64,000 nt of DNA from Thermosediminibacter oceani DSM 16646 (GTDB lineage Bacteria; Bacillota; Thermosediminibacteria; Thermosediminibacterales; Thermosediminibacteraceae): the NCBI RefSeq assembly GCF_000144645.1, contig NC_014377.1, forward strand, positions 1,240,001-1,304,000, read 5' to 3'. This document shows, one piece after another, positions 6,872 to 26,213 of this stretch. The translations under genes and the position numbers were made by a program. Position 1 is the stretch's first letter; the number at the start of each line of letters is the position of its first letter. The notes beneath the pieces were generated by a model. The model searched no databases. It had not been told where the DNA came from and saw nothing but the letters and a program-made list of their open reading frames with translations.

Positions 6872-6932
6872 AAAAAAAGACTGTCGACAGTTACTTTGTC
6901 GACAGTCTGAGAAGGGGAATAAATCCCCTTCT
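6872..6932 (-). terminator. Tandem hairpin terminator behind the capsid gene
   Basis: Two hairpins follow the capsid stop on the minus strand: AGAAGGGGA paired with TCCCCTTCT (6910-6932), then an 11-pair stem AGACTGTCGAC/GTCGACAGTCT (6879-6908) followed by seven T. The second is a textbook rho-independent terminator and marks the end of the surviving phage head operon. Confidence 0.85.
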
Positions 6933-6935
6933 TCA

Positions 6936-7766
6936 TTAGGCTCTGTTGCAGGTCATAACTGCTATAGCGTTCGGTTTTATTACTTTTGCGCCATACAAAG
7001 CCAAGCCTTTTACGGCATCGGCGAAGGATTTTTCCGGCCTGTAGGCTTCTATGCTGTTGATAGCCCTTACGAAAGCGATAGCACCACGATAGCCAGCCAT
7101 TATCTTGTATTTCTGACCGCCAACGTTAGGAACATTGTTGGATTCGTATATAGTAGCACCGTCAACCATTCCGATTTCACCGGTTATGAGCACATCGGTT
7201 TTAGAAGTAAACCTCGGGTCTTTCTTCAGAAGCCCTGCAAACCAGGAAGGAACAACTACAAACCTGCCGTTTTTGGGTACATTGGCTTCGTCTAGTTTTA
7301 CAAGCAAATCCACCAAATAATCATAAGCATTATCTTTAGTAGGCACTATGGGACTTTCGTCACTGCCAATGGTATTGCCAGGAGCAACCTCAGTGTAAAG
7401 CGAAGCGATATATTGATCCATTGCATCCGCTAAAGCATAAGCGGCCTCCTGCATGGCAGCGTCTACAAGGTTTACATTCATTTGTGCCTTATCTACATCA
7501 TCTACTTTAAAATTGAAATACTTTGCTTGGTCTATAACAAGAGTGGTCTGATAAGAATCGAGTTCTTGAGGATCACCAATGCCGGTATTCTTATCATAGT
7601 CACCAATATTGATAGAACCAATAGAATTGATTTTTACAGTAGAACCCTTACCAACTATTTCCCCTTCATAATCAGTGTTTACAATATTACCATATACCAA
7701 AGCCTTCCTTAAATTTTCATTAAGCCTTGCACTCCATATTGTCGCTATAAAATTCTGTACACTCAT
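6936..7766 (-). CDS. Phage major capsid protein
   Basis: 276 residues. It is the last gene of the head module and follows the scaffold gene by 24 bases. The sequence resembles phage coat proteins of the HK97 fold: an N-terminal arm (FIATIWSARLNENLRKALVYG), a central stretch VVVPSWFAGLLKKDPRF that is characteristic of siphophage and P22-like coat proteins, and a C-terminal AIAFVRAINSIEAYRPE. It should form the icosahedral shell around the scaffold. No tail-completion, tail tube or tail tape gene follows; a terminator and the IS1182 element come next. Function is assigned from resemblance and gene order. Confidence 0.88.
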   Translation of the reverse strand: MSVQNFIATIWSARLNENLRKALVYGNIVNTDYEGEIVGKGSTVKINSIGSINIGDYDKNTGIGDPQELDSYQTTLVIDQAKYFNFKVDDVDKAQMNVNLVDAAMQEAAYALADAMDQYIASLYTEVAPGNTIGSDESPIVPTKDNAYDYLVDLLVKLDEANVPKNGRFVVVPSWFAGLLKKDPRFTSKTDVLITGEIGMVDGATIYESNNVPNVGGQKYKIMAGYRGAIAFVRAINSIEAYRPEKSFADAVKGLALYGAKVIKPNAIAVMTCNRA

Positions 7767-7789
7767 TTAAAACACTCCCTCTCATAAAA

Positions 7790-8392
7790 TTAATATTGAA
7801 TTTTGAATTTTCCCCAATATTTGTTAATCTCTTCTTCAGTCATATTTTTTAAATCATCTTTGGTAAAAACTCTGGTTTGTGTTTCTGTTTCTTTCGGTGG
7901 CTGATAAGTGCCTTTAAGCCTCTGCTGCACTATGTTATTAACCGCCTCATTAAAAACCCTTTCGAGTTTCATAAGATTATCTGTAGTAGTGCGTTCATCT
8001 TCTCCCACGAAGAAATCAATTATTTCTGTAGGCAAACCTCTTTCCTGCGCTATTTTTAGTGCTTTATTGGTTAAATCTTTCCTCAATGCTTCTGCCTTCA
8101 TCTTCTCGAATTCAGCCCTGAGTTTAGCAATTTCAATGTCTTTCTCATCCTTTTCAGGATACCTACGCTTAATTTCCTCATCAATGAGTTTTTGAAGGTT
8201 ATTGCTTTTCCATTTCTCAAGCCCTTTCTGTAGGTGTTTGTCTCTCTCAGAATCAAACCAAGACTTAAATTCAGGATTTTCATTCACTAGCGACTTCACT
8301 TTTTCCAAAGTAATGAACCCGCTAATGAATGATTTTACTTCATCCTTGTCTTGATTAGCCTCAAGAAAAGCCTTTACTTCTTCTAGTGTCAT
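7790..8392 (-). CDS. Phage scaffolding protein (minor structural protein GP20-like)
   Basis: 200 residues, very rich in Lys and Glu, and predicted mostly helical with coiled-coil potential (residues 60-150), as expected for capsid scaffolds that are lost on maturation. Its place between the minor head protein and the coat protein is the standard siphophage order. A GGAGAGG ribosome binding site precedes the ATG. The C-terminal helix-rich segment (FTKDDLKNMTEEEINKYWGK) is the sort used to bind coat protein. A strong terminator lies just upstream (8464-8500), so this gene and the capsid gene probably need their own promoter or antitermination. Confidence 0.8.
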   Translation of the reverse strand: MTLEEVKAFLEANQDKDEVKSFISGFITLEKVKSLVNENPEFKSWFDSERDKHLQKGLEKWKSNNLQKLIDEEIKRRYPEKDEKDIEIAKLRAEFEKMKAEALRKDLTNKALKIAQERGLPTEIIDFFVGEDERTTTDNLMKLERVFNEAVNNIVQQRLKGTYQPPKETETQTRVFTKDDLKNMTEEEINKYWGKFKIQY

Positions 8393-8463
8393 GCTAACCT
8401 CTCCTTTTTGCCCCCAGAACAGGATTAATCCTCCTCTGGACGCAATTTTTTGGTTTATAAATT

Positions 8464-8500
8464 AAAAAAAAACGCCTCCAAATTTCGTTTTAAAGGCGTT
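8464..8500 (-). terminator. Terminator inside the phage head operon
   Basis: The stem AACGCC/GGCGTT, extended by flanking A and T runs, encloses an AT-rich loop and is followed on the minus strand by nine T. It sits between the minor head gene and the scaffold gene, splitting structural genes that normally share a transcript. Confidence 0.75.
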
Positions 8501-8569
8501 TTTTCTATGAGGGGATATAAAACTATTACCTTTCAAAAAAAATCCTCTAAAAAGTGCCTTTTTGTGCGT

Positions 8570-9451
8570 TTAAAACGATTTTGATGCTTGCCAATCTTCA
8601 TAAGATTTATAATCTATTATTTCGCCTGTTTCCTGATCCCTTCTTTGTGACGGATTCCACCCCTCCACAACAGGAACTAATGTCGATCTGCAATTTGGAT
8701 GAGTATCTTCAGGTATGTTTGGCGCATCATCTAGATCAAAATATTTTCCGTCTAGATTTTGGCATATTTGCGAAGTCCTGTCGTCTAAAGTGGCAGAAAA
8801 AAGAACTTTTTGCACCACACCAGAACTTTTATAAACTTCTTTTTGTGCCTGCGTCATACATCTTGCCATTTCTGTATTGATTATTCTTTTGGCTTCATAA
8901 GCACCTGAACCCATTGTCTGCGCTATATCTTTGCTTAATTTATCAATGGATTTGCCCTGAATCATGCCATCTTCAAGGTTTTTACGGAGGTTTTTCACTA
9001 ATTTTTCTTTGTTGTCCCATATTCGGTCGCTAAAAGTTTTACCTTCAATGGGCATTTTCACTGCTTTTTCAACGAATTCAGGTCTTAAAATAGAATAATC
9101 TATGCTTACATCAACGCCTTTTTCAATAACATTTGCAGTGCGGTAAAAACTTTCTTTATATATGTCTTTCAGTATTTCCGTTGTTTTTTCATCCTCAATT
9201 TGCCCTAATTCTCTAGCCATCTGAGTTAATTTTTTTTGCATTTGTATTAAAACTGCATATCTTTGCTGGTCACTAACACTCAAAACCCCGTCTTTAGCAT
9301 ATTTAGCAAATATCTTCCCTAACTCTCCCCTGATGTCGTTAAGTGCTCTTTTATATGCCTGAAGTATTGGTAAACTGTCTTTATTAGCCTTCCTCTGCAT
9401 TTGAATATGTATTTTTTCTATTTCCTTCTGCAATTGTTTTTGTTTATCCAT
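8570..9451 (-). CDS. Phage minor head protein (SPP1 gp7 / Mu F-like)
   Basis: 293 residues. The N-terminal half is helical and charged. The C-terminal part has the Mu F-like/SPP1 gp7 domain, recognised by INTEMARCMTQAQKEVYKSS, FSATLDDRTSQICQNLDG and EDTHPNCRSTLVPVVEGW (residues 190-260). Proteins of this family are carried in a few copies inside the procapsid and help DNA entry or exit. The gene overlaps the portal gene by eight bases, as in SPP1-type phages, where portal and gp7 interact. The C-terminus continues about 20 residues past the domain. It is a confident family match by motif. Confidence 0.87.
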   Translation of the reverse strand: MDKQKQLQKEIEKIHIQMQRKANKDSLPILQAYKRALNDIRGELGKIFAKYAKDGVLSVSDQQRYAVLIQMQKKLTQMARELGQIEDEKTTEILKDIYKESFYRTANVIEKGVDVSIDYSILRPEFVEKAVKMPIEGKTFSDRIWDNKEKLVKNLRKNLEDGMIQGKSIDKLSKDIAQTMGSGAYEAKRIINTEMARCMTQAQKEVYKSSGVVQKVLFSATLDDRTSQICQNLDGKYFDLDDAPNIPEDTHPNCRSTLVPVVEGWNPSQRRDQETGEIIDYKSYEDWQASKSF

Positions 9452-10721
9452 TTTCTACACCATCCGGTATACTATCTAAATTAATACTCATAACTTCTTC
9501 TTGCTCTTTGCGGAGTTTTGCAATTTCTTCTTTGGGATTGTCAACAAAACTCAATTGAGCAAGTGCGGTTTCTGTTGAAAGTTTACCGTTAAGTTGTGAT
9601 ATTATCTGAGCAGTCATGAGATCATCCTGCGGTATGTTCGGAGTAAACTTAATTTTTACATCTCTATAGTCAAAATTCTGGCCGGTTTTGATTTTCAGGT
9701 ATTTAAATAAAAACTTTAGTCTTGTTTTCAGTGCATCAGCCAAAGCATCAGCGTTTAATTTGCACTTATTTTCAAGGGAAATAAGCCTAGTCCGCAAAGC
9801 CAGCGAACTTGTGTTGCTAGAAAGTTTCTCATTAGCATTTATATGGTTTGAAATCTGATACATTTTATCTTCAAGGGTTTTTAGCGTATTCTGTATAAAA
9901 GCGTCATTAATATTTTTAGTAAGCCAGCGCACATCTCCACCCTGCGGAACTTTCATTGCTCCTAACTGTTTCATGGCTGCAAGGTCGTCTGCGCTAATTT
10001 CTGCACCCATAATCATGAGATAAGCGTTGCGGAAGTCGGAAATTTCATTGGAAATATCACTTAAATTAGTCTCGTAAGCGTCCTGTAACCCCTTTAGGTC
10101 GTTAAAAAGTGTATCAAATTCTTTTTCTTCCGCTATGCTGCAAATAGCAACCGGCACTTCATCGAAAATATGAGTATCTTCGCCGATATAATTAATATCC
10201 GAAATACCCGAAACGGTGTAATGTTCTACTTTCCCAGGGTAGTAAACATCAAGATACTGCGTTTCGTCAAATTTTTTCTTGAATAAAACTAAAAACATTT
10301 GCACATTGCCGTAGTCATCGAGTAATGCATAAGAATTCAATGGACTATATATCTGCGCTGAGAATAAACCGTCTTTATCCACGTAATATAATTCGTACGC
10401 TTCCCCGAAGGTGAGCATTTTTTTGCATAAATTCTGGTCGTGTTTTTCGCTCCAGTGTGCAAGATTTTGTGTTATAGCATTGATTATATCCTCGTTGCCG
10501 GATTTTGAAATATAAGTAACCTTATTACCGACAATGTAGGAAACTTCTTCTTTAATGAAGGTTTTAATAAAATTGCAGTTTACTTTATTATTAGTGCGGT
10601 TGGTGATCATTTGATAATTAAGCATAGCATCGGTTTTTCCCAGGTAGTAGTTATACATCTTCTGAAACTTAGGCAAATTAAGGAAGTAATCTTCCAAACA
10701 AGACTTTATTAAGGTTTCCAT
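9444..10721 (-). CDS. Phage portal protein (SPP1 gp6-like)
   Basis: 425 residues. The N-terminal NRTNNKVNCNFIKTFIKEEV (about residues 41-60) and SYIVGNKVTYIS are typical of SPP1-type portals. A middle section (LKGLQDAYETNLSDISNEIS, about residues 210-230) and MIMGAEISADDLAAMKQLG match the stem and wing regions. The protein forms the dodecameric ring at one vertex through which the terminase pumps DNA. It starts 18 bases after the large terminase stop and overlaps the minor head gene, completing the usual terminase-portal-head order. The length is a little short against SPP1 gp6 (about 500 residues) but normal for thermophile phages. Confidence 0.9.
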   Translation of the reverse strand: METLIKSCLEDYFLNLPKFQKMYNYYLGKTDAMLNYQMITNRTNNKVNCNFIKTFIKEEVSYIVGNKVTYISKSGNEDIINAITQNLAHWSEKHDQNLCKKMLTFGEAYELYYVDKDGLFSAQIYSPLNSYALLDDYGNVQMFLVLFKKKFDETQYLDVYYPGKVEHYTVSGISDINYIGEDTHIFDEVPVAICSIAEEKEFDTLFNDLKGLQDAYETNLSDISNEISDFRNAYLMIMGAEISADDLAAMKQLGAMKVPQGGDVRWLTKNINDAFIQNTLKTLEDKMYQISNHINANEKLSSNTSSLALRTRLISLENKCKLNADALADALKTRLKFLFKYLKIKTGQNFDYRDVKIKFTPNIPQDDLMTAQIISQLNGKLSTETALAQLSFVDNPKEEIAKLRKEQEEVMSINLDSIPDGVENG

Positions 10722-10738
10722 TGTCGCACCACCTTATT

Positions 10739-12475
10739 TTATAAACCTAATAATCGTCTGTCGAATACCTGAATTTTCTCAACTACTTTAATGTCATCTA
10801 TCCTTAAATCTAACTCAGCCACACAGTCAGCGGCGTCATCATGCCCTATACCTTCGCCCTGATATTCCAAAATCTGGTTATAGAAGTCCTCATCTTCCTG
10901 GTTAAAGATGATAAAGCCATTGTTTACTTTCCCTGCAATAGCCCGGATTTTATTTTCTTTATTTTTCTTTTGGTATTCATTGATAAAAGTAATATTTCTA
11001 TGGCGTAATTCATCGTCATTTCTTATTAACTCTTGCAATCGTTTTACGTCACTACCGTTGAAGGTGTTTTTTTCGATAAAAACATGAGTAATATCAGGGT
11101 ATTGCTTGAGCAACTCAATTACTTTTGCTATGTATTCGTCAAAATCTACCTTCAAAAGCAAGCCTTTTCTGATATACCTATAACCATTACTATCTTTTGA
11201 GCCAACACAGATAGCGGTAAAGTCGTTGTTTTTGCCAGTATTAACAGCGCAGTCAACGCACATCATGGTCTTTTCAAAAACATGGCTTTCTATTTCTTCT
11301 GGGGTTTCGGTTTTTATAGTAAAGAAACACTTTTCCCCGATGTGGGTAGCGTCATTCATTATTTCACTTTTGAAGGCAATAGGATCAGAATAATACATTA
11401 GTGCTAAATCTATGCAGGTATATTTCTCCGGCCAAAGCCTCGGGAATGTCATTTCTTTTTCATACGCATAAAAATAATCCCTAGCGTCTATTTGAGCATA
11501 GGGATTTTTATTATCGAAGTATATTTTCTTAAATTCAGCCCAGTAAGGATTATGATTGAAATAGTTATCCACATCAAAATTTTCCAGCGGAATACCTCGT
11601 TTTAAAATACTGTAGTATGTTTTATCGTTTAGCAAACGTGAAATAAAATCGTTCTCGGCAAGCACAGTGCCGATAATTACGTATTTGCTGCCAGGTTTTA
11701 TTTTCACGCCATCCCTATATACAGGAGTATCACCGGCATAGAGAACATCTTTTTGAAAGGTCTCATATTTTTTATCCTTCGCCTGGTCATTTAAGCAGTC
11801 ATCCAATCCAACTATATCATCACAGATAATAAATTGAGGTCTTTTGCCTAAGTGTTTACGTCCTCTCATGCTTGACGTGCTAGATATTGCTTCAATTTTT
11901 GTGTTATTAGTTAAGTGTAATTCGTTAGCATTAACCGTAAAATTTTTGGTGTCTATTAATTCTCCAAAGGTTTCCTTAATATATTCATTATTTTCTAAAG
12001 CGGAACGCACATCAAACACAAATTTTTGAGCGTCTCTTTCAGTTTTACCCTGCACTATGGTATAAAAACTTTTACCATAGCAATGTAACCATATTACAGT
12101 AGCATAAGTTACTACAGTGCTTTTGGCGTGGCCTCTAGGTAAGCATAGGACTAATTTATCAAATTCGTCTTTGAGTATCATTCTTTCTAGTGTATTCCAT
12201 ATCTCATGGTGGAATGGTGCTAATGGTCTGGCATCGTTATTTTCTTTAACCCTAAAAGTATCCTGCAAAAAATAAAGGCAAAAAAACTCAATACTTTCTG
12301 CGCCTACAGCGTAAGCCAATCCATGATAACCAAACAGATTTTCTTTGTTTTTTTGTATTATTTTTTTCGCTATTTCCTCGGTTTTTTGTTGAGGAAGGTT
12401 TCGCTTTGCGGTAATGCTTTTAGTTAAGTATTTTAGTAAAAGTTCTATATCTTCTTTTGTGGGTTGCACTGCCAT
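10739..12475 (-). CDS. Phage terminase large subunit
   Basis: About 578 residues from the ATG at 12475, chosen because GGTGAT lies close upstream; an upstream in-frame start at 12526 gives 17 extra, less convincing residues. The ATPase part has a Walker A-like LPRGHAKST (about residue 115) and Walker B FIICDDI (about residue 217), with YKYVIIG-like coupling residues (SKYVIIGTVLAEND) later. The C-terminal nuclease part shows MCVDCAVNTGKNNDF (about residue 405) and HVFIEKNTFNGSD (about residue 465), supplying the acidic residues of the RNase H-like nuclease. The enzyme cuts concatemers and powers packaging through the portal. The reading frame is intact. Confidence 0.92.
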   Translation of the reverse strand: MAVQPTKEDIELLLKYLTKSITAKRNLPQQKTEEIAKKIIQKNKENLFGYHGLAYAVGAESIEFFCLYFLQDTFRVKENNDARPLAPFHHEIWNTLERMILKDEFDKLVLCLPRGHAKSTVVTYATVIWLHCYGKSFYTIVQGKTERDAQKFVFDVRSALENNEYIKETFGELIDTKNFTVNANELHLTNNTKIEAISSTSSMRGRKHLGKRPQFIICDDIVGLDDCLNDQAKDKKYETFQKDVLYAGDTPVYRDGVKIKPGSKYVIIGTVLAENDFISRLLNDKTYYSILKRGIPLENFDVDNYFNHNPYWAEFKKIYFDNKNPYAQIDARDYFYAYEKEMTFPRLWPEKYTCIDLALMYYSDPIAFKSEIMNDATHIGEKCFFTIKTETPEEIESHVFEKTMMCVDCAVNTGKNNDFTAICVGSKDSNGYRYIRKGLLLKVDFDEYIAKVIELLKQYPDITHVFIEKNTFNGSDVKRLQELIRNDDELRHRNITFINEYQKKNKENKIRAIAGKVNNGFIIFNQEDEDFYNQILEYQGEGIGHDDAADCVAELDLRIDDIKVVEKIQVFDRRLLGL

Positions 12476-13069
12476 ATTATCACCAACTTTTAAAAAAAGT
12501 TCAGGGAGGGAAGAACCCCTCCCCATAGACGGAATCCTCGCCGTCCCAGGCGGTTTTACTTTTTGGAGGAAGGAGGAGGCAGGAGTCGAACCTGCTAGAA
12601 ACTGCCAAACTTACCCTTATGGCTGCTTGCCGATGTTTTGATGTATAGTAAGGCCCTGTTGCTACCTCGAAGGTTAAAAATTACATAAAAAATTTGTAGA
12701 GATAATCCCACCCCATTTTCTGACAATTCAAAAAAGAAGGGTGGGGGGTAAATTTTCTTAACATTCTCATAATGAATAATATACAAATTACATTTACCAA
12801 TAATTGTAATTGAGTCTATGATAATAAACCTTATCATAGACTCAACGTCCGATAATATAACACTATGTTAAATGATAAAAATTCTCACGATAGCCTTCTA
12901 ATCCTTGATTTTATTGAAACTGTTATATTCTTCCATCATAATTATTAATTATTTTTCATTTATATACAGGTTCGATTGTATATCTATCCATTTTTCTAGT
13001 GTTTAAACTAGATAAAACTCAAATTTTATTCAAATCTGAAATTTATTTTTATGTGAGTTTTTGTAGGTT
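12476..13069. other. 594-base non-coding, structured gap between small and large terminase genes
   Basis: No convincing gene is present. The region contains a perfect 15-pair hairpin (12810-12824 with 12831-12845, loop TAAACC), a GC-rich stem on the minus strand (CCCACCC at about 12740-12750 with GGGTGGG at about 12708-12715), and a tRNA T-arm mimic on the minus strand (12579-12595: GCAGG, loop TTCGACT, CCTGC). The right part (about 12880-13069) is AT-rich with nothing recognised. The position beside terS suggests a packaging site (cos or pac) or a small RNA. This is inference. Confidence 0.5.
12810..12845. repeat. Perfect 15-bp inverted repeat
   Basis: TTGAGTCTATGATAA and TTATCATAGACTCAA are separated by six bases. 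No T-run follows on either strand, so it is not an ordinary terminator. It lies between terS and terL and could be a protein-binding palindrome or an RNA hairpin. Confidence 0.75.
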
Positions 13070-13462
13070 TTATTCATCCAAAACCTCATCAATGAGATCA
13101 TTTAAATCTGCTGCGGAGTCTTTATTTGGATCATTCATATCCACGCTAACTTTTGTTGAAGGTTTGCCCAATTGCCTATCAACCCAGTATTTGAGCAGGT
13201 CTGCTTTAACTTTATCGCTCTGGCTTTTTTCTATTAAGGCCCATATCTTATATAATGCTTCAGGCAATTTGGAATTGATAATCTTCTCTGCCTGAGCTTT
13301 ATTTTCCTGTAAGCGTTCGTCAAGCGCTGCCTTAAATTCAGGATTCTTCAACCAATCATATATCGCTTGTCTGCTTCTCCCTATTTTCTGTGCTATTTCA
13401 GTAATACTCATGCCTGCAACTAAATATTCAATACACAATCGTTTCTGTTCATCTATTATCAT
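13070..13462 (-). CDS. Phage terminase small subunit-like, HTH protein
   Basis: 130 residues. The N-terminal helix-turn-helix reads SITEIAQKIGRSRQAIYDWL (residues 19-38), as in phBC6A51-type DNA-binding proteins and small terminases. It is followed by a long helical region suited to oligomerisation (residues 40-105) and an acidic C-terminal tail (DLNDLIDEVLDE) of the kind that contacts the large subunit. The gene lies one non-coding interval upstream of the large terminase, the expected place. It should recognise the packaging site on the element's DNA. HTH proteins with this architecture are sometimes transcription regulators, so the terminase role depends on gene order. Confidence 0.75.
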   Translation of the reverse strand: MIIDEQKRLCIEYLVAGMSITEIAQKIGRSRQAIYDWLKNPEFKAALDERLQENKAQAEKIINSKLPEALYKIWALIEKSQSDKVKADLLKYWVDRQLGKPSTKVSVDMNDPNKDSAADLNDLIDEVLDE

Positions 13463-13724: not shown

Positions 13725-13728
13725 ATTA

Positions 13729-14004: not shown

Positions 14005-14784
14005 TTATACAGCCACGGAATATTTTATTTTGTTTCTGCCCACTAAAGCCGCCGAAAAAATTTTACCGCCAATGGTTGATATTTTGGCGGTTTGAGGTAT
14101 AAAATAATAATAGGGAAGGAATTCTATATCTGGTAATGTTAAATCTAAATCAAATAACTCGCTTAATTCGGCAAGCCTTATATCGCTTGCTAATTTTTTA
14201 TCTTTATCTATCCAAATTTTACCATTTAGGTTATATTTCTTTTTGACTTCTTCAAAGTCTTTAGGTTTGTACCTACTCAAAATTTCCTCAAATTCTTTCA
14301 TTTCAAGCACGTTGAGGTAATGAGCGTGAGAAATGATGTCATTAAAATATTGCGAATAGTAACCTAGATAAAATGAATCTATAGCCAACAAAATCATTTT
14401 GGCTTCTTCGCTTTGGGGTAAAGGTATATCATAGTAACTCCAAATTTCAAGCAATGTGCTTCCTGCATACTTATCGAAGTAATTTTCGTGGCTAATACTA
14501 TCAATTATATTCAAGTTCGCTGCTTCAGGATTATAAAAAGGGGTAACATGATTACCCCAACACTTACCACGTATTAAATCTATATCTACTGCAATCGCTT
14601 CATTAATTGCATTTTCGGTTTTGTAAAGACAATTGAAATCATAAAAGTAATTGATTTTATATCCTTTTACTTTCTCTAGTAATTTACACGAGAATAGCGA
14701 ATCAATATCATTACTTAAACACAAATCAAAATATTTATCGCTTTTCGTCCATTCTGGAAATTTGGCTTTGTATTCTGCTCGCAT
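14005..14784 (-). CDS. DHH phosphoesterase-like phage protein
   Basis: 259 residues. Three stretches recall the metal-binding motifs of DHH-superfamily phosphoesterases in the right order: SNDIDSLFSCKLL (about residue 24), AVDIDLIRG (about residue 64) and GNHVTPF (about residue 76, in place of the DHH motif). A large helical middle part follows and then a C-terminal PQTAKISTIGGKIFSAALVG. Canonical members hydrolyse oligonucleotides or act as exonucleases (RecJ). Here the third motif is altered, so activity is uncertain. The gene has its own GGAGAGA-type ribosome binding site and is separated from the primase gene by a strong terminator. No closer assignment can be made by eye. Confidence 0.45.
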   Translation of the reverse strand: MRAEYKAKFPEWTKSDKYFDLCLSNDIDSLFSCKLLEKVKGYKINYFYDFNCLYKTENAINEAIAVDIDLIRGKCWGNHVTPFYNPEAANLNIIDSISHENYFDKYAGSTLLEIWSYYDIPLPQSEEAKMILLAIDSFYLGYYSQYFNDIISHAHYLNVLEMKEFEEILSRYKPKDFEEVKKKYNLNGKIWIDKDKKLASDIRLAELSELFDLDLTLPDIEFLPYYYFIPQTAKISTIGGKIFSAALVGRNKIKYSVAV

Positions 14785-14826: not shown

Positions 14827-14853
14827 AAAGCAAGGGTGAAAATACCCTTGCTT
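14827..14853 (-). terminator. Terminator behind the primase gene
   Basis: An 11-pair stem AAAGCAAGGGT/ACCCTTGCTTT with a five-base loop is followed on the minus strand by a T-run. It ends the primase transcript right at its stop codon and separates it from the DHH-like gene. Confidence 0.85.
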
Positions 14854-15392
14854 TAATTTTCTTCATCTTCTAATATTCCATCGGGGATTTCCCCATATTT
14901 AAAATCAAGGGGATAATTTTGGCTCATGATTACATAGGGATAACCTTTTTCTTTGATGAATAGTTTTCTTTTTAACTTTTTATTTGCTCTCACTTTTTTT
15001 AGATTATACTTTTCGATAACTTCGCCAAGAATCCGCTTTAGGTTTACTTCTTTTTCTTTTCCCGCAAGTTTCAAAATGTCCTTTTCAGTAGCATAACCTT
15101 TTTCATTAATAAAATCCAAAATCAATTTTTCTAAATAAAACGCTGTCCTTTCATTTTTTCTGGGTATTTTTTTGGTTTGCATTTGCGGATATACTCTATT
15201 TGCTTCTTCCTCGCCAAAATTTCGCAAAATCATTTCTCGACTAATACCTTTCATAGTGCAATGTTTTTCTTTCCACGTCATTGCTCTTTTTTCTGCTCGT
15301 TCTATAATGTCCCAACAATAAGAAGGAATTGAGTAAAATGACGTCAAGTTTTTCTGGTTTTTGGTTTTTGCTTGTCTAATCGCTTCCGCAAG
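14853..15392 (-). pseudogene. Primase, C-terminal fragment (split by IS21 copy 1)
   Basis: About 177 codons (from EAIRQAKTKNQ to the stop at 14853) belong to the primase gene whose first 444 codons lie at 17564-18894. When the IS21 copy and one GCAAG duplicate are removed, the frame runs through IPDFLLA-EAIRQAK without any change, giving one protein of about 621 residues. This part is basic and helical (ISREMILRNFGEEEANRVYP, KKVRANKKLKRKLFI) and may be a C-terminal DNA-binding or helicase-interaction region. Within the IS end a GTG could restart translation (MTLAEAIRQ), but no good ribosome binding site is seen. Confidence 0.85.
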
Positions 15393-17563: not shown

Positions 17564-18894
17564 GCAAGAAGAAAATCTGGTATTTGATGTTTTTGAAGTT
17601 TATTAAGAAAGCCCAAAAATGTAAACAATGCGATTCTGTCATTCATTCGTTGCATACTACCACAATCACATATTTTAGTTAAAAACTTTATGCTAGCAAA
17701 GAATATGGCATTATCCTCATCATCTGTAAAATTTTCAGTCAAAACATGGTCTTTAGCATAACCTAAAATTAAATACAGGTCATTAATGTAACGCTTAACC
17801 AATTTGTAAGTTTCAGGATAAGAGTTTTCAAATTCATCGCTTATAATAAATCTCATATTTTCCTCAATAATTTCCTTTTGTTTTTTTTGCCACTCGGTTT
17901 CTTCATACTCAATTTTATACACTTGTCTTAAAAACCGTAAAGCGTCAACCCTGTTTGCATGTTGTATTTTTTCTACACATTGAATTATTGTGCCCTTAAA
18001 GCCACAACCAAAACAATAGTAAATTTGATGTCCTGTATCTTCGCTTATCAAAACTTCCGCCGAAGGTTTTTGGTCGTCATGGAATATGCAATTAAACATT
18101 TTTTTGTTGCCATCAATACCTAAAAATAACTTCAAATCTTGTTGCTTTATGTAATCGTAAACATCATCATGGTTATTGAATTTTACTGGTTTTGGATTTA
18201 TAATATCTTGTAGTGTTTGAATATCTTTATTTTTGATTAAGTCAAAGTGGCTATAATCCTTGTGTGTCAAGGCTTCTGGGTTTTGGTGGGAATGATAAAT
18301 AGTAATATATTTCTTTTTATCATTCCCACTTTTCTCCCTTAACACTTTTATTATGGTCTTAATATCATATCTCACATTATTATCCTCAATAATTTTTACT
18401 AAAAAAGGATTATTAACATCCTTTACATGATAAAATCCTGGTAACCTCATCAATCTTGCAGGATTTTTTACTTGAGGATCAGCGTTAAAGTAATTAATTA
18501 ATAATTCTTCACACTCTCTAAATTCTTCTATGCTTACTCCTTCTTCTATAAGCCAGTATACATGCAACCCATTTTTAGTCTCTATTATGTAACTCGGTTT
18601 AAAATCAAAGTTATGTATTTCTTCAAGTTTAATTTGCTTAAAACTATCAATCATGCTCAAATCTAAATCTTTGCCTGCGTCCAGGTCAATAAACACTGCA
18701 TTAATTTTGTTTATTTCACTGTCTTTAAAGCCTCCACTATTTACGACAAAGTAAATATTAAAACCATCTTCATTGAGCTTTCCTAATTCCTCTTTCAAAT
18801 CTTCAAATTTCCCGCTTTTTTTGATGGCATAGTTTCTTATACAGGAAAAATTTATGAGTGCATTTTTCCCAAAAATGTCATCTAAAAATTTCAT
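17564..18894 (-). pseudogene. Phage primase with PrimPol-like and CHC2 zinc-finger domains, N-terminal part (disrupted)
   Basis: The first 444 codons of a replication primase; the current frame reads 13 extra codons into the IS21 end and stops at 17521. The N-terminal archaeo-eukaryotic PrimPol-like part shows INAVFIDLDAGKD (about residue 64), YIIETKNGLHVYWL (about residue 101) and ARLMRLPGFYHVK (about residue 145). A CHC2-type zinc finger follows: CIFHDDQKPSAEVL...YYCFGCG (about residues 265-293). Together these identify a primase that starts replication of the element. AAGGAGGAA lies nine bases upstream of the ATG. The truncation leaves both recognisable domains intact, so residual function cannot be excluded, but the gene is physically broken. 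Confidence 0.85.
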
Positions 18895-18940
18895 CCAAAT
18901 ATTCCTCCTTTTTTAAGATTTTTTCCTCGTATTAATCTCA

Positions 18941-19111
18941 TTATAAATTTTCATACATTTCTAGCACTTTCTGGAGTTCTGGACTATTTTCAAACACAAA
19001 TACAGTCGCAAAATGGTTTTGTTTATGAGGTTTAAGGTCAACAATTTTAAATCCTTTTTTTACCAGTTTTCTTGCTAGTGCAGGATTCAATATAACTTTT
19101 GTCGGTTTCAT
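18941..19111 (-). CDS. Small hypothetical phage protein, about 56 residues
   Basis: The start at 19111 (MKPTKVILNPALARKLVKKG) has AGGAGGCAAAGA just upstream; a longer frame from 19153 lacks a site. Similar small proteins with an N-terminal V-x-L-x-P-x-L-A-x-x-L basic helix and a C-terminal FVFENSPELQKVL segment are frequent in Firmicutes phage replication regions. No function is known to me. It sits between the 151-residue gene and the primase, with tight spacing. Confidence 0.6.
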   Translation of the reverse strand: MKPTKVILNPALARKLVKKGFKIVDLKPHKQNHFATVFVFENSPELQKVLEMYENL

Positions 19112-19159
19112 ATTCTTTGCCTCCTTTTTTTTATTTTGTATTTGTAAGGCCAACCGGCC

Positions 19160-19615
19160 CTATATAACCCCATCCTGTGCTAAACCTTCCAGGACGCTTT
19201 TTCTCTGTTCAAAATTCAGTCCCGCCCTCAATAGCGCTAAATCCATATACACGTAGTGTTTCAGCATTTCTTCATGTAGCGGCGCTATAAGGTATTCAGA
19301 CAGTATGTAGTCTATCATTTGCAGTTCTTCTTCCAGTGTCCCTATGCTCTCGTCCTCAAATTGTGCAACGTAGAAATTTAACCATTCTGCTATTTCATCC
19401 AGTTCGTCTTTACCGTCAAAAAATATTTCTTCCATCATGGCTTTCTTTTCTTCAAAGCCTTTTTTAAATGCCGCATAATCCGCAACTGAATTTAACAACC
19501 TTTCGATTACAAGTTTCTGATCCTTTAGGCTTAGTCTCCTGATAGCATTTTTGGTTTTTTCGCACATTTCCCTTCCGAATACTTCCCTTACGGTGTCATT
19601 CAGTGTGTTAATCAT
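19160..19615 (-). CDS. Hypothetical phage protein, about 151 residues
   Basis: The start at 19615 (MINTLNDTVREVFG) is preferred because AGGAGAGG lies about eight bases upstream; earlier in-frame starts at 19621 and 19669 are possible. The protein is mostly helical and acidic, with leucine-rich segments (LDEIAEWLNFYVAQFE, EEELQMIDYILSEYLIAP) and no membrane helix. No family is recognised. It follows a terminator (19675-19698) and precedes the primase region. Confidence 0.6.
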   Translation of the reverse strand: MINTLNDTVREVFGREMCEKTKNAIRRLSLKDQKLVIERLLNSVADYAAFKKGFEEKKAMMEEIFFDGKDELDEIAEWLNFYVAQFEDESIGTLEEELQMIDYILSEYLIAPLHEEMLKHYVYMDLALLRAGLNFEQRKSVLEGLAQDGVI

Positions 19616-19674
19616 TAACATCCTCTCCTTTGTTTTTTTTATTTTTTTGTCCAAAAAATAAAAAAGCAAAAGCC

Positions 19675-19698
19675 AGCCATATATTACCTTTTATGGCT
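19675..19698 (-). terminator. Terminator in the early phage region
   Basis: The stem AGCCAT/ATGGCT (extended by weaker pairs) is followed on the minus strand by a GC step and then a T-rich tract near 19640-19665. It divides the small regulatory genes from the 151-residue gene. Confidence 0.55.
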
Positions 19699-19776
19699 AA
19701 CTTTCCCCTCCATTATATATTATATTCTCGAAATTTGAATTTATAAACTTAACTTTATTATATTCTTGTTACAATT

Positions 19777-19935
19777 TTATTTATATACTGTTTTTTCAAG
19801 ATTTGATATACGTATCTCATGATTAGTGAGCATTAATAAGCACTGTTCAATGGTATCTATCATTTTATCCATTCTTTTCATGTGTTCTTTAAGAAACTCT
19901 ATTAACTCATCAATTTTCTTGGCAAATTCATCCAT
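19777..19935 (-). CDS. Small coiled-coil phage protein, 52 residues
   Basis: The ATG at 19935 overlaps the stop of the HTH gene by eight bases, and the HTH gene's GGGGAAGGTGG end supplies the ribosome binding site. The protein starts MDEFAKKIDELIEFLKEH and continues with heptad-like hydrophobic spacing through MKRMDKMIDTIEQCLLML, ending NLEKTVYK. It should form a short coiled coil. The overlap shows translational coupling to the repressor-like gene, so it may act with it, which is inference. Confidence 0.6.
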   Translation of the reverse strand: MDEFAKKIDELIEFLKEHMKRMDKMIDTIEQCLLMLTNHEIRISNLEKTVYK

Positions 19936-20119
19936 TGCCACCTTCCCCTCCCTGCAATATATACTGCTTGTAAGCGATTTCTTTTTCGGGTGAAATGTTG
20001 CACTTATCCCTCTCCCACATACTTAAAAGTGAAACCGAGCAGCCAATACTATTCGCTATCTCCTGTAGAGTAATGTTTTTCTTTTTCCGTGCCATGATAA
20101 ACAAGTCTTTAACGTTCAT
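19928..20119 (-). CDS. Small XRE-type HTH regulator
   Basis: 63 residues, almost entirely a Cro/CI-type helix-turn-helix: ITLQEIANSIGCSVSLLSMW (residues 16-35). GGGAGGGAAGAAG precedes the ATG. Its size is that of a Cro-like or excisionase-like regulator, not a full repressor with an oligomerisation or cleavage domain. It is the only clear lysogeny-type regulator in the island and lies between the AP2/sigma pair and the replication genes. A controlling role over early genes is likely but inferred. Confidence 0.8.
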   Translation of the reverse strand: MNVKDLFIMARKKKNITLQEIANSIGCSVSLLSMWERDKCNISPEKEIAYKQYILQGGEGGNG

Positions 20120-20171: not shown

Positions 20172-20405
20172 TTATACGTTGTTTAGTTTCTTTTTGCCTA
20201 ATTTTCGAGCCACTTCATCATAGGCCCTCGCCGCTTCGAGGGCCGTGGGGAACACTCCGATATATTGTTGTTTGTTTCCGTTTCGTATCACCGCTCGGTA
20301 TGCTCCGTATTTAGTTTTGCTGACTCCATAATATTTTTGCTCTTCGAGCAATTCTGAAAAAAATAAGTTCCATATCGGATAAGTTTCTATTGAGGATGTA
20401 GTCAA
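20172..20405 (-). CDS. AP2 DNA-binding domain frame, possibly a shifted extension of the sigma-like gene
   Basis: The last 53 of 77 codons make an AP2 domain: YYGVSKTKYGAYRAVIRN with NKQQYIGVFPTALEAARAYD and VARKLGK, the standard YRG and RAYD halves. In bacteria AP2 domains occur mostly in phage homing endonucleases and small phage DNA-binding proteins. The nominal TTG start at 20405 has no ribosome binding site and lies inside the 3' end of the sigma-like gene, which it overlaps by 95 bases in another frame. The frames meet around a run of seven T (20357-20363 on the minus strand). Either a programmed slip makes a sigma-AP2 fusion or an indel has split one gene. An independent start cannot be excluded. 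Confidence 0.7.
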   Translation of the reverse strand: MTTSSIETYPIWNLFFSELLEEQKYYGVSKTKYGAYRAVIRNGNKQQYIGVFPTALEAARAYDEVARKLGKKKLNNV

Positions 20406-21513
20406 GCATCTGTTTTTGATTTGTTGTAACGTTTTGTATAAAATCGTAAAAAGCCTTAAAGCACGTCCAAAATATTTGCTCTTTCTGTTTGGCGGTTATT
20501 TCTGCTTCTTCTTTTTCGAGGATAGAGAAAAGCACTTCGTATTGTGGACGTGGTATTCTGTCAACGAGGATATCGAAAATTGTTTCGTTAATGATGTTTT
20601 TGTTTTTGTGCAATTGCTCGAAGGATATATCTTGTTCGCCTTTTCGGTAGTTTGCTTTTAGAAAATTGATTAAATAACTAAAATAATCAAAATTATTCCC
20701 TGCTACCTCATGGATTTTTGCCACTTCAAGCAGGAAACCGGCAATTTTCTGGTATTTGTCGGTTTTTAATTTTGTCTCGGCTTCAAGATATTGATTCCAG
20801 AGTTCTCGAATACGTTCAACTATAGTGCGCTTTATACTATGGAATTGGTCCCATGTCATGTTTAGTTCCTCGGCTATTTCTGTATCTGTTTTTACACCTG
20901 CCTGGCAAATTGCCTCAAAAACTTCATATTGCTTCGGTGTTAATACATTTTTTGCCACATTCTTAAAAGCATCCCAAAACTTTCTTTCTTTGGTGCTTTC
21001 GCTGCTTCCTTCGGCGAATTCATGTATTTGTTGCCAATCTACATTTGTACAAGCCACGTCTCCTTCTTTGTCTAAATATTCGATGATGGGCTCAAATTCA
21101 ACGAATTGGCGATATCGCATGTTTTTACCATCACGTACACGCTGTTTCCCCTGGATTTTCATGGTTTCGTTGGAGAGTGCGTATTTGATGGATTTCTGGA
21201 AAAAACTGATAATACTTGTTGTATCTTTATATTTCTCTAAATCACATTTTTCTAAACATTCGGTAAATGTAAATAAAGCAATATCGTAAGCCTCATCTGT
21301 TCCGAGAAATTTGCAATACATCGGCATAAGTTCGTTCAGTATTTTCTGCATTTTCCAGTCAATACATGTCCACTTATCGCCGTGAAATTTTATTAAGCTT
21401 CCCAAAACTTCACTTTTATTGCTAGCGTTCTGATATTCTCTAACCCAATCATGGAAAGTTTTGTGTTGGCTTATGTGTTTCACCGCCTTTCTGGTTTTAG
21501 TGAAAAATTTCAA
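20311..21513 (-). CDS. Phage sigma-70-like regulator
   Basis: 400 residues. The first 120 resemble sigma region 2 in layout (DEAYDIALFTFTECLEKCDL, FFQKSIKYALSNETMKI). Residues about 190-240 form a region 4-like helix-turn-helix, LTPKQYEVFEAICQAGVKTD followed by TEIAEELNMTWDQFHSIKRT. A second region 4-like copy may lie near the C-terminus (RPQYEVLFSILEKEEAEI). Such long sigma-like proteins occur in phages and plasmids of clostridia and probably direct RNA polymerase to element promoters. It follows a terminator directly. The final 30 codons overlap the AP2 frame, so the real C-terminus is doubtful. Confidence 0.65.
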   Translation of the reverse strand: MKFFTKTRKAVKHISQHKTFHDWVREYQNASNKSEVLGSLIKFHGDKWTCIDWKMQKILNELMPMYCKFLGTDEAYDIALFTFTECLEKCDLEKYKDTTSIISFFQKSIKYALSNETMKIQGKQRVRDGKNMRYRQFVEFEPIIEYLDKEGDVACTNVDWQQIHEFAEGSSESTKERKFWDAFKNVAKNVLTPKQYEVFEAICQAGVKTDTEIAEELNMTWDQFHSIKRTIVERIRELWNQYLEAETKLKTDKYQKIAGFLLEVAKIHEVAGNNFDYFSYLINFLKANYRKGEQDISFEQLHKNKNIINETIFDILVDRIPRPQYEVLFSILEKEEAEITAKQKEQIFWTCFKAFYDFIQNVTTNQKQMLDYILNRNLSDMELIFFRIARRAKILWSQQN

Positions 21514-21584: not shown

Positions 21585-21756
21585 TATGAACTTATACACG
21601 GGCTGTAATACACCCCTCCATATATATTAAAAGACATTTTTTTTGAAAAAATTATCACTTTTTCCTGTAATTATCACATTTTTTACAAACACTTTGTAAC
21701 CCATCTTTTGTATCGGGTTTTTACCCTGTTTATTGCATAATTAAAATGGACAGAGT
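21585..21756 (-). pseudogene. Degenerate zinc-ribbon gene fragment left of IS21 copy 2
   Basis: Read on the minus strand, the region encodes DTKDGLQSVCKKCDNYRKK and then a stop. This is the C-terminal half of a CxxC...CxxC zinc-ribbon protein whose better copy lies at 24357-24510. A stop codon directly upstream in the same frame shows it is broken. The following DNA also repeats the spacer found between the right-hand copies (for example GAACTTATACACGGGCTGTA here against GAACTTGTACACGTGCTGTA at 24316). Confidence 0.6.
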
Positions 21757-21881
21757 TGCAAAATAAAATCCCCACTTTTGCAACTCAAAAATCCCCAAAT
21801 TTGCAAAGGTCATTGCAGGCACCCCTAAAAACCTTTACCCTTGTAGTTAGGGAAATCTTAACTGCAAGGGAGGATTGGAGG

Positions 21882-23405
21882 ATGCTCACAATGACCCATA
21901 TTGATAATATCAGAAAAGCGTTCTTTATGAAAGGGCAAAATATCAGCGAGATAGCCCGGGAATTCCAAAAAGACCGAAAAACTATACGCAAGTATATTTA
22001 TCAAGAAGACTGGAACACCAGGGTTAAAGTTGAAGAAGTTAAACATACCTTCCCAAAACTCGACCCTTTCAAGGCGGATATAGATCAGTGGCTTGAAGAA
22101 GATAAAAAAGCTCGCAAAAAGCAGAGGCATACCGCCAAAAGGATTTATGACAGGCTCTGTGAAAAATACCAAGATAAGTTTAACTGTTCTTACCGCACCG
22201 TAGCAGGCTACGTAGCCATGAGAAAAAAAGAATTGTACCAGGACAACTCATGTCGTCTGCCGCTGGAACATATCCCGGGTGAAGCGCAGGTGGATTTCGG
22301 TGAGGCAGACTTTTACGAAAACGGGACGCTGCATCACGGATTTTATCTGAACCTGTCGTTTCCCTACAGTAACGTAGGATATACCCAGCTTTTCAAGGGA
22401 GAAAACCAGGAATGCCTGTTTCAGGGACTTAAGGACATATTTGAACACTTGGGGGGAGTACCCCGTAAGCTATGGTTTGATAACGCCAGCACTATCGTGA
22501 AACTCTCGAAAAATGGAGAGCGCAAACTAACCGACGCCTTCCTGAGGTTCAAGCAGCACTATGGTTTTGAAGCGGTATTCTGTAACCCTGCTTCCGGCCA
22601 TGAAAAGGGTAATGTGGAAAACAAGGTGGGATACCACCGGCGCAACTTCCTTGTCCCGGTCCCCAGGTTTGAAAAGCTGGAGGATTTTAACCGCGAACTT
22701 TTACGATTGTGCGACCGGGACATGCACCGCGAACACTACCGGAAGGAGGCATCCATAGCCGAACTTTTTAATGAAGACCGTAAGGCTCTGCTTGAGCTGC
22801 CTACCGTTCCTTACGAGGTAGCCGGTTACATAACAGTCAAAACCAACGCCTACGCCAAATTCAGCTTGAACGGTGGAAAGCACCTATACTCTACCGCCCC
22901 CAAATACGCCAACAGCCGGGTGCTTGTAAAGATAACAGCCCATGAGGTCATACCGCTGGATGAGAGCCACCGGGAAATCGTGCGCCACCGGCGGCTTTAC
23001 GGGGACAACAAGCAAGAAAGCATGGACTGGCTGCCATATCTTACCCAGCTTTCCCGCTGTCCGGGAGCCCTTAAGTATTCGGGAATATACAGCATGCTGC
23101 CGGACCCACTCCGGGAATACCTCGACGGCTTAAGCAAAAGTGAGCGCGGCAAAGCGCTCAAGGCTTTGGCTGTGCTTTGTACCAAAAGCAGTTTTGAACA
23201 GGCTGTGAACGCTGTAGCCGAGGCTCTCCTTTACGGAGTGCAGGATTTAGACAGCCTCGTAGCCATCCATAACAGGATAACGGGTATAACCCCGCAGTTG
23301 GAGCCGGTAAAGATTCCGGAAGGGGTTCCTGAACTCACTGCATTCCGCTTCAATGCAGAAGACTATGACAAAGCCTTTCTGAAAGGCGGTGCCAATTTAT
23401 GCTGA
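21882..23405 (+). CDS. istA: IS21 transposase IstA (second type)
   Basis: About 507 residues from ATG 21882, with GGGAGG eight bases upstream; the open frame extends to 21756 but reaches the IS end. The HTH is ISEIAREFQKDRKTIRKYIY (about residue 23). DDE-core stretches are GEAQVDFGEADFYENG (about residue 127), RKLWFDNASTIVKL and NPASGHEKGNVENKVGYHRR with the catalytic Glu (about residue 245). The length matches the longer IstA group and is about 100 residues more than copy 1. The stop overlaps istB by seven bases. Confidence 0.94.
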   Translation: MLTMTHIDNIRKAFFMKGQNISEIAREFQKDRKTIRKYIYQEDWNTRVKVEEVKHTFPKLDPFKADIDQWLEEDKKARKKQRHTAKRIYDRLCEKYQDKFNCSYRTVAGYVAMRKKELYQDNSCRLPLEHIPGEAQVDFGEADFYENGTLHHGFYLNLSFPYSNVGYTQLFKGENQECLFQGLKDIFEHLGGVPRKLWFDNASTIVKLSKNGERKLTDAFLRFKQHYGFEAVFCNPASGHEKGNVENKVGYHRRNFLVPVPRFEKLEDFNRELLRLCDRDMHREHYRKEASIAELFNEDRKALLELPTVPYEVAGYITVKTNAYAKFSLNGGKHLYSTAPKYANSRVLVKITAHEVIPLDESHREIVRHRRLYGDNKQESMDWLPYLTQLSRCPGALKYSGIYSMLPDPLREYLDGLSKSERGKALKALAVLCTKSSFEQAVNAVAEALLYGVQDLDSLVAIHNRITGITPQLEPVKIPEGVPELTAFRFNAEDYDKAFLKGGANLC

Positions 23406-24130
23406 AGGACGAAATCGCCGCCTGCTGTAAAGCATTAAAACTCAGCCGCAATCTAGTGGAAAACTGCGACAAGATCGAGGCTCAAAGCCATGAAGAATAC
23501 CTGCTGAAGCTGCTAAGATTAGAACTGGAGCACAGAGACGCAAGTCGAAAGGACAGGCTTTTGAAAAATGCGGGCTTTTACACGATAAAGACCTTTGCCG
23601 GCTACATATTCGATGAAATCAAACTCCCGCAGGGGCTTACACCGCAGGACCTAAAAGATTGCAAATTTCTCGAAGAAAAGAAAAACCTGATCCTTTACGG
23701 CAACGTGGGAACCGGCAAAACCCATCTTGCCACCGCCATCGGTGTGGAGGCCTGTAAAAAAGGCTACAACGTAAAGTTTTTCCGCACTGCAGCGCTGGTA
23801 AACCGGCTGGTGGAAGCCCGGAAGGGAGGTGAACTTTCCGGGTTACTGAAACAGCTTTCCAAACCAGATCTTCTGATCTGCGACGAATGGGGCTATGTTC
23901 CTTTGGACCGCGAAGGAGCGCAGCTACTTTTTCAGGTGATTTCGGACTGCTATGAACGTCGCAGTGTAGTAATTACCACTAACCTGGAATTCAGCCGCTG
24001 GGCGAGCATTTTCTACGATGAGCAGATGACAGCAGCAATGATTGACCGGCTAATACACCACAGTTACCTATTGATCTTTGATGGTCAAAGCTACCGGATG
24101 AGGCAATCACTCATGAGGCAATTAAGTTAA
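23399..24130 (+). CDS. istB: IS21 helper ATPase IstB (second type)
   Basis: 243 residues. Walker A LYGNVGTGKTHLATAIG (about residue 98), Walker B LLICDEWGYVPLD (about residue 157) and sensor region VVITTNLEFSRWASIF (about residue 193). It is the AAA+ target-selection partner of the adjacent IstA, with which it overlaps by seven bases. The C-terminal IDRLIHHSYLLIFDGQSYR is typical of IstB. The frame is intact. Confidence 0.94.
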   Translation: MLKDEIAACCKALKLSRNLVENCDKIEAQSHEEYLLKLLRLELEHRDASRKDRLLKNAGFYTIKTFAGYIFDEIKLPQGLTPQDLKDCKFLEEKKNLILYGNVGTGKTHLATAIGVEACKKGYNVKFFRTAALVNRLVEARKGGELSGLLKQLSKPDLLICDEWGYVPLDREGAQLLFQVISDCYERRSVVITTNLEFSRWASIFYDEQMTAAMIDRLIHHSYLLIFDGQSYRMRQSLMRQLS

Positions 24131-24194
24131 CATAAAAATTCCCCACCGGTGCCTGGGGAAAAACCTTTGCAAAAATGGGGAATTTCCTCTTGCA

Positions 24195-24600
24195 AAAAAC
24201 ATTTACCCTTCCATAAATATACTAGCATTTTTTTGAGCATTTTTCCTCGATTTTTATGTAATTATTCCAACATTTCTTGCAAACATTATATAATCCATCT
24301 TTGTTTCTTTTGAATGAACTTGTACACGTGCTGTATTATACCCTTCCATAATAATATTAGCATTTTTTTGAGCGTTTTTCCTCGATTTTGCCCAAATTTC
24401 TGCACTTTTTACAAACACTATGTAACCCATCTTTACTATCTTGATTAATGCTAAAATATTTTCTTGTTGCCAAATATACCTTTCCACATTTAGAACAGGT
24501 TTTATACTTACCACGTGCTTTGAAAAACCTCTCTATAAATATTATAACGGAATGAAACTTGTTATTTTTAACGCTTTTTCTCTACTTTTTCACAATTTCT
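24195..24600 (-). repeat. Tandem degenerate zinc-ribbon gene repeats
   Basis: Three further partial copies of one small gene lie here on the minus strand. One (stop at 24357-24359) encodes KTCSKCGKVYLATRKYFSIN with KDGLHSVCKKCRNLGK and ends RSKKC, a CxxC...CxxC zinc ribbon with no clear start codon. A second, to its left, encodes NKDGLYNVCKKCWNNYIKIE and ends CSKKC. A third, near 24555-24600, preserves only FRCRNCEKVEKKR. They share spacer DNA such as GAGCATTTTTCCTCGATTTT. Similar small proteins occur in phage replication regions. These look decayed. Confidence 0.6.
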
Positions 24601-24702: not shown

Positions 24703-24814
24703 ACTTTAATTTTTGGTGTATATGATATGTAACATGATATATATCATCATTTATACAGTCATAATCTCTAAAACCCTCATTATGCTTTGCTTTGAGTTTT
24801 TTGGACAAACTCAA
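24701..24814 (-). other. Possible small protein, about 37 codons, start unclear
   Basis: An open frame ending at TAG 24701, directly at the terminator, reads SLSKKLKAKHNEGFRDYDCI and NDDIYHVTYHIHQKLK. It is preceded in frame by a hydrophobic run (GFFIAIFILL) without an ATG. A TTG at 24814 is the only usable start and lacks a ribosome binding site. The hydrophobic head, charged tail and terminator-adjacent stop hint at a small membrane protein or its remnant. Confidence 0.3.
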
Positions 24815-24840
24815 TAAAATAAAAATTGCTATGAAAAATC

Positions 24841-25077
24841 CTAATCAAGTCGTGTGGCAAGATATTGTTGGAGAAAATGCAGTTTATTAATGTCGTCTAT
24901 GAGGGAATTAATATAAGTGATCCTCTCCCGAATCGGCGATTCATCATTTTTTATCATTGTTTCAAATCTTTCCGACACTTCTTTTCCGCAGACAGTTTTG
25001 TATGTTTGCTTTAAAGCCATAAGCCTCCTTTCGAGAATTTTGTTTTCATTAATTTCCAGCGTAAGCATTTCCCCCAT
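24841..25077 (-). CDS. Hypothetical helical phage protein, 78 residues
   Basis: Starts MGEMLTLEINENKILERRLM (the fourth codon, also ATG, is an alternative start) behind a G-rich ribosome binding region. It is charged and helical with coiled-coil potential in its last 35 residues (ERITYINSLIDDINKLHFLQ). No family is recognised. It lies 30 bases downstream of the integrase stop and could be an accessory such as an excisionase-sized factor, but no HTH is visible. Confidence 0.5.
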   Translation of the reverse strand: MGEMLTLEINENKILERRLMALKQTYKTVCGKEVSERFETMIKNDESPIRERITYINSLIDDINKLHFLQQYLATRLD

Positions 25078-25107
25078 ACCCCCTATGATTTTTATTTAAA
25101 AAATTAT

Positions 25108-26079
25108 TCATAAATCAAAATGATTCAAAGGGCTATGCTGCATATAGTCCTTTTTTATGTCTTCATCTAGCAAATCCATATAAGCATCCATCGTAACTTT
25201 GACGTCCGAATGTCCCAGAAGTTTAGAAAGCATAGGGAAATTCCCGCCGTTGAGTATGTAATATCTAGCAAATTGGTTTCTAAGCATGTGTGGTGAAATG
25301 TCTATTCCTACAAGTTTCCCTGCGTCTCTTAATTGTTTTTCGTATGAGTGGACAGTGAGGGGTGTCCCCCTTTTGGTGGGAAAAATTAGATCTGATGAAA
25401 CATACCTTTCCTTATATTTGAGCCAATTCTTCATTTCCTGAAGCATCTTTGGACTTAAATATACTTTTCTTTCTTGCTTGTTTTTTGTGTTTCGCAAGGT
25501 AACTACTCTAAATTTGAGATCAATATCATTGTGAGTAAGAGACAGGGTTTCTTGTATCCTTGCTCCTGTATCAAGCAAAAACTTGAATATAACGTAATTC
25601 CGATAGCCAGTAAACGTTGACTTAACAAAGCAGTTGGCTATTCTCTTTAGATCCTGTTCGGATAAGGGTTTTTTAACTTTTCTTTGTGGTTTAATCTGCT
25701 CGATTTTCGCCACTGGATTTTTAGGTATTTCACCTTCTCCGTAGAGCCAATTAAAGAATACTTTGAGATTCCGCAAGTAGTTTGCTTTTGTAGTTGTAGA
25801 TAGAGGTTGTCCAAAATCTTGACGATTCTCGGGGTTATTTATTTCTTTTTTTGTCTCATCTATAATTACCGTATATTTCCCTCTTTTTCCAAGATAGTCC
25901 AAATACTGCCTAATATGTCCAGTATTTACTTTAGATACTTCTTCAATGCCATATTTCTCTTTTAGGAATTGAGCAAAAAGTCTTAAACTTTGCTCATAAC
26001 TTCCGATTGTTCGTTTTGAGAGATTCTTAGCATTACAATATAACAGAAAATTTTCGATTTGAAATTCGATGTCGGTCAA
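25108..26079 (-). CDS. Tyrosine recombinase / integrase of the island
   Basis: About 323 residues with an N-terminal SAM-like core-binding domain (residues 1-110) and a C-terminal catalytic domain. The catalytic set is complete: Arg in TGARIQE (about residue 174), Lys in RNTKNK (about 199), HMLR (His 264, Arg 267), His in LGHSD (about 290) and the nucleophile Tyr in DAYMD (about 300). The TTG at 26079 is the likely start, with GGGAGGTG upstream; the GTG at 26091 lies inside that site. It is the first gene after spo0A, 135 bases away and in the same direction. It should integrate and excise the island. Confidence 0.9.
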   Translation of the reverse strand: MTDIEFQIENFLLYCNAKNLSKRTIGSYEQSLRLFAQFLKEKYGIEEVSKVNTGHIRQYLDYLGKRGKYTVIIDETKKEINNPENRQDFGQPLSTTTKANYLRNLKVFFNWLYGEGEIPKNPVAKIEQIKPQRKVKKPLSEQDLKRIANCFVKSTFTGYRNYVIFKFLLDTGARIQETLSLTHNDIDLKFRVVTLRNTKNKQERKVYLSPKMLQEMKNWLKYKERYVSSDLIFPTKRGTPLTVHSYEKQLRDAGKLVGIDISPHMLRNQFARYYILNGGNFPMLSKLLGHSDVKVTMDAYMDLLDEDIKKDYMQHSPLNHFDL

Positions 26080-26082
26080 TAA

Positions 26083-26135
26083 AACAAACACCTCCCGTTA
26101 GTTTAGTTCTAGCCAACTAACAAGAGGTGTTTGTT
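26083..26135 (-). promoter_or_regulatory. Long inverted repeat sequestering the integrase ribosome binding site
   Basis: AACAAACACCTC (26083-26094 on the plus strand) pairs perfectly with GAGGTGTTTGTT (26124-26135), and an inner GTTAGTT/AACTAAC pair extends the structure. In the mRNA the 3' arm contains the GGAGGTG ribosome binding site of the integrase, so a folded leader would block translation. The repeat might also be a recombinase-binding or attachment-site element. Confidence 0.65.
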
Positions 26136-26213
26136 GGGTTTACTTTGGGAAGTTTGTTGGTTTTTCTAGTGCCATTTTCAAAAATTCGTTGGTTTTTCAA
26201 TGCCTTCAAACCC
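26136..26213. repeat. Short direct repeats between integrase and spo0A, possible attachment-site region
   Basis: TTGTTGGTTTTTCTAGTGCC (about 26153-26172) is repeated imperfectly as TTCGTTGGTTTTTCAATGCC (about 26187-26206). A third GTTTGTTGGG-type word occurs at about 26129-26138. Their spacing is irregular. They could be arm-type integrase sites or the right attachment site. No matching copy was found at the left end, so the attachment core remains undefined. Confidence 0.4.

Follow-up and report, generated by a model that had tools for sequence, protein, structure and literature searches.

The 64,000-nucleotide stretch of the Thermosediminibacter oceani DSM 16646 chromosome analysed here (the window) carries a phage-derived island between spo0A (26214–26999) and a steA-like gene (4083–5237). 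All island genes lie on one strand (minus) and, as confirmed with Pfam and PHROGs, form a head-only set in the order integrase, HTH regulator, sigma-like/AP2 protein, PrimPol–CHC2 primase, small terminase subunit (TerS), large terminase subunit (TerL), SPP1-type portal, minor head protein, scaffold and capsid. The tyrosine integrase (25108–26091; PF00589, E = 5.9e-33) belongs to a group found behind spo0A and lies next to that gene in the window. The early region further includes orf78 (24841–25077), to which no function is assigned, the small HTH regulator (19928–20119; PF01381) and orf70 (18941–19153), a DUF5659 protein. Beyond orf259 (14005–14784), again with no assigned function, the head module comprises TerS (13070–13462; phrog_2538, E = 1.1e-18), TerL (10739–12526; phrog_38, E = 6.5e-91), the portal (9444–10721; PF05133, E = 1.4e-117), the minor head protein (8570–9451; phrog_115, E = 4.8e-80, and PF04233), the scaffold protein (7790–8392; DUF4355/PF14265, E = 3.2e-37) and the major capsid protein (6936–7766; phrog_267, E = 1.6e-70, and PF25209). 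Searching the window by tblastn with 12 connector and tail proteins of relatives as queries returned no connector or tail gene. Minus both IS21 elements the island measures 14,645 bp; a sequence-only reading of this DNA had put it at about 14.7 kb, and its account of the gene content, the single coding strand and the missing tail genes is borne out by these searches.

Two early genes are damaged. An IS21 copy (15393–17563, plus strand) with the 5-bp target duplication GCAAG sits inside the primase gene, and the PrimPol/CHC2 primase described in that reading, although its domains were found, is not one gene but two ORFs split by the element: an N-terminal piece (17521–18894) of PrimPol/RepB type with a CHC2 zinc finger (PF01807), covering positions 70–447 of phrog_25531, and a cut-off C-terminal piece (14853–15398) covering positions 448–614. 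An uninterrupted relative is encoded by a single 626-aa ORF in Desulforamulus (locus L191), and no intact relative was confirmed in viral contigs. A second IS21 (21727–24201, plus strand) has the target duplication TTTACCC. The sigma-like protein is present as described, but its C-terminal AP2 DNA-binding domain lies in another reading frame, so that the gene (20172–21513) occupies two frames; the two parts are fused in one 450-aa ORF in the IMG/VR contig L016 (625–1977) and are in frame in contig L013. The apparent frameshift falls at a run of seven T, where a sequencing error is possible.

The closest matches of TerS (90% to both L013 and L016) and of the portal (83–88%, with 83% to L016) are the IMG/VR contigs L013–L016. 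L016 also shares its early genes with the island, namely orf78, sigma/AP2, the HTH regulator and orf70; orf78 is conserved in L013 as well, and the HTH regulator is at 70% to both contigs. The island capsid gene stems from another lineage than that of L016, as in a mosaic phage, and is closest to that of contig L083 (71%), with 55% to the capsid of the deep-sea thermophilic phage D6E (GU568037). L016 and L083, both unclassified tailed phages or prophages, have the same TerS–TerL–portal–minor head–scaffold–capsid order as the island. However, L016 continues behind the capsid gene with four connector-size genes, a tail tube protein and a tape measure, L083 with connectors, tail tube and tape measure, and D6E with a tail module, whereas the island stops at its capsid gene in an IS1182. 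A connector or tail match was found in 60 of the 75 relatives that have at least 3.5 kb behind their head genes, compared with none in the window; the other 15 gave no match with the queries used, which divergence may explain. In L016, the tape measure is directly followed by a large serine recombinase (18228–19862), and L083 has one a gene further on (16920–18686). A search for related portals in 60 related genomes gave distant matches only, along with a second, distant portal in the T. oceani genome itself.

The ‘proper tandem terminator’ at the end of the head operon had been taken as a sign of a complete unit. A terminator hairpin does stand directly behind the capsid gene (hairpin B, 6911–6932), but the other half of the tandem is the end hairpin of the IS1182, whose edge lies at 6910. 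Moreover, L083 has a T-tailed hairpin 10 nt past its capsid stop, in mid-operon, with connectors and tail genes following, so a terminator behind the capsid gene does not mark the end of a unit. A scan behind the capsid genes of relatives, in which a short stem was allowed and a T-run criterion applied (the stem in L083 is 6 bp), found such hairpins in 5 of 70, against 0.1 expected by shuffling.

The IS1182 at the island edge (5315–6910, minus strand) is one of 33 copies in the genome, full-length or later interrupted, and both flanks were read for every one of them (loci including L043–L051 and L164–L188). In 32 of the 33, both sides of the element carry the same palindrome of ~16–34 nt, in most cases a terminator-like hairpin, with a single-base difference in one of these pairs. 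This pattern indicates that the IS1182 of this genome inserts at a hairpin and duplicates the whole of it as its target repeat. Targets of IS1272, which belongs to the same IS1182 family, are inverted repeats without common sequence, and the model proposed for IS1272 includes a variant that duplicates the whole stem-loop, similar to the situation here (PMC5678879). By contrast, the stem-loop targeted by IS1272 is reported to be replaced without target duplication (PMC5678879), whereas in T. oceani it flanks both sides in 32 of 33 copies. Mismatched flanks occur only in the copy at the island edge, which has hairpin A (5291–5313), AACACCCCTAAATTTGGGGTGTT, on the steA side and hairpin B, GAAGGGGAATAAATCCCCTTC, on the capsid side; a whole-genome search revealed no second occurrence of either. 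Because its flanks differ and each is found once in the genome, the edge copy is most simply understood as the product of recombination between two insertions. Four other copies (L185–L188; near 480.0–484.2, 1373.7–1378.0, 1477.3–1481.6 and 2227.1–2231.3 kb of C1) contain an insert of ~2.5 kb, at two different points within the IS1182, probably a further mobile element that inserted there.

Hairpin A is the native terminator hairpin of the spo0A–steA interval: both the hairpin and the steA leader match those of a sister species (G001), in which the interval is seen as two contig ends, spo0A–AACACCCCTAATTAAGGGGTGTT–IS1182 and IS1182–AACACCCCTAATTAAGGGGTGTT–steA, the IS1182 being oriented as in the window and no phage being there. 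The hairpin on the spo0A side of the island differs from hairpin A and is similar to the spo0A terminator found in another genus of the family, a difference that fits a phage having integrated at the spo0A end and supplied a replacement end of its own. The putative attachment region with this replacement-type terminator hairpin occupies 26092–26213 on the 3′ side of spo0A; the position of the att core is presumptive, attR being gone. No attR was detected on the steA side, there being no repeat of at least 10 bases common to both island edges.

The three best relatives of the integrase in genomes (42–54%) all follow spo0A immediately; they are those of a Vallitalea MAG (L189), Clostridium sp. 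Ade.TY (L190) and Desulforamulus aquiferis (L191). Given this shared position in three other Firmicutes, spo0A is likely to be the attachment site. In L190, the 3′ end of spo0A recurs as an exact 133-bp copy at a distance of ~9.6 kb, which is what an attL/attR pair should look like, and the island bounded by this duplication is without head genes; the elements behind the three integrases vary in content. Such tyrosine integrases probably form a family that has the 3′ end of spo0A as its attachment site, brings a replacement for that end along and works for phages as well as small islands across the Firmicutes; the present locus would be a worn-out member. Nothing direct was found in the literature on spo0A as a phage attachment site, and this side result merits a survey of its own. 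In the L191 draft, spo0A and the neighboring integrase both appear frame-disrupted (9078–9850 and 10001–10985), owing to either decay or sequencing error.

We are confident that the island corresponds to the left half of a temperate tailed-phage genome with an SPP1-type head module, that the tail half was lost via IS1182 recombination, and that it is now a dead prophage. As in a tailed prophage, the integrase stands at one end beside a host target gene next to which related integrases also occur, and the head module is collinear with its counterpart in tailed phages (L016 and L083); the island is truncated, as the mismatched IS1182 flanks indicate, and its primase gene has been inactivated by splitting. 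A decayed prophage was indeed the first alternative of the sequence-only reading, which had also mentioned in passing a possible loss of a tail module through the adjacent IS1182; with the edge element the sole mismatched copy among 33 and the primase broken, both suggestions hold up well. The history probably ran as follows. A tailed temperate phage would have entered the chromosome at the 3′ end of spo0A, and one resident IS1182 copy would have landed in the terminator hairpin behind its capsid gene; another copy, like that of the sister species, would have occupied the spo0A–steA terminator. The two would have been in direct orientation, and recombination between them would have deleted everything in between, with the connectors, the tail and lysis genes and attR, leaving a single IS1182 between a phage hairpin and a host hairpin. 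The decay would then have been completed by the apparent frameshift and by insertion of the IS21 elements, of which one interrupts the primase gene. Because neither hairpin has a second copy in the genome, deletion of the tail-side half and attR through recombination between two IS1182 copies is the most likely course; we infer the content of the lost part from the relatives, and its size, like the event itself, is reconstructed.

An inversion between two IS1182 copies, which would have split the phage and moved its tail half elsewhere in the genome, would likewise leave mismatched flanks around the IS. However, the reciprocal junction expected from such an event is absent: both hairpins were searched genome-wide and neither recurs, the flanks of all other 32 copies match, and no tape measure is found elsewhere in the genome. 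The orientation of the IS1182 in the spo0A–steA hairpin of G001, which is that of the window copy, also argues against it. The missing junction favors deletion and already contradicts an inversion, unless the junction was later lost, and we regard this course of events as very improbable.

The sequence-only reading itself leaned towards a capsid-forming phage-inducible island (cf-PICI), an element that makes its own heads and takes its tails from a helper; the island would be such an element, or would have been one before the scar arose. Head–tail connector or adaptor genes let cf-PICI heads join helper tails. The likeness is considerable: cf-PICIs combine integrase, primase, terminase, portal and capsid genes in ~14 kb, which is also their average size (PMC10803314), and the island has terminase, portal and capsid genes of its own, no tail genes, a primase and an integrase, and 14.6 kb without the IS elements. 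Small elements without head genes, moreover, do occur at spo0A with a related integrase (L190). Yet the right boundary, where a complete unit would have its second att site, is a recombinant IS1182, that is, a deletion scar; no connector or adaptor gene was found with the connector proteins of relatives as queries; the island has its early and head genes in common with the tailed phages L016 and L083; and the primase is interrupted by IS21. A helper prophage in the same genome had been proposed as a check, but neither the L016 tape measure as query nor PF10145 found a tape-measure gene in the genome, which thus holds no obvious helper or displaced tail module; a helper could still reside outside it. 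These points leave a satellite origin only a slight chance. The reading as a self-packaging phage satellite is rejected because of what forms the right boundary, the missing connectors, the broken primase and the failure to find a helper in the genome. An allele of the spo0A–steA site carrying the same phage with its tail half, which had been named as the finding that would speak against a satellite, was not encountered; the one sister species compared, G001, is phage-free.

With the island read as a truncated prophage, one candidate cf-PICI is removed. IS scars can give a broken prophage the look of a neat head-only satellite, and the flanks offer a cheap sequence test: where an IS normally duplicates whole terminator hairpins, unlike hairpins on the two sides of a copy mark a deletion or another rearrangement.

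A second phage remnant, also without tail genes, lies elsewhere in the T. oceani genome (G000:C1:973400-990350; loci L052 and L053). It contains an integrase, a DnaD-like protein, scaffold, capsid (phrog_1328), TerL, the distant portal and a copy of orf259 that is 82% identical to that of the island (L052:14481-15257), and carries the same IS21 as the window. Its capsid gene stands before the early genes, and the remnant looks scrambled.
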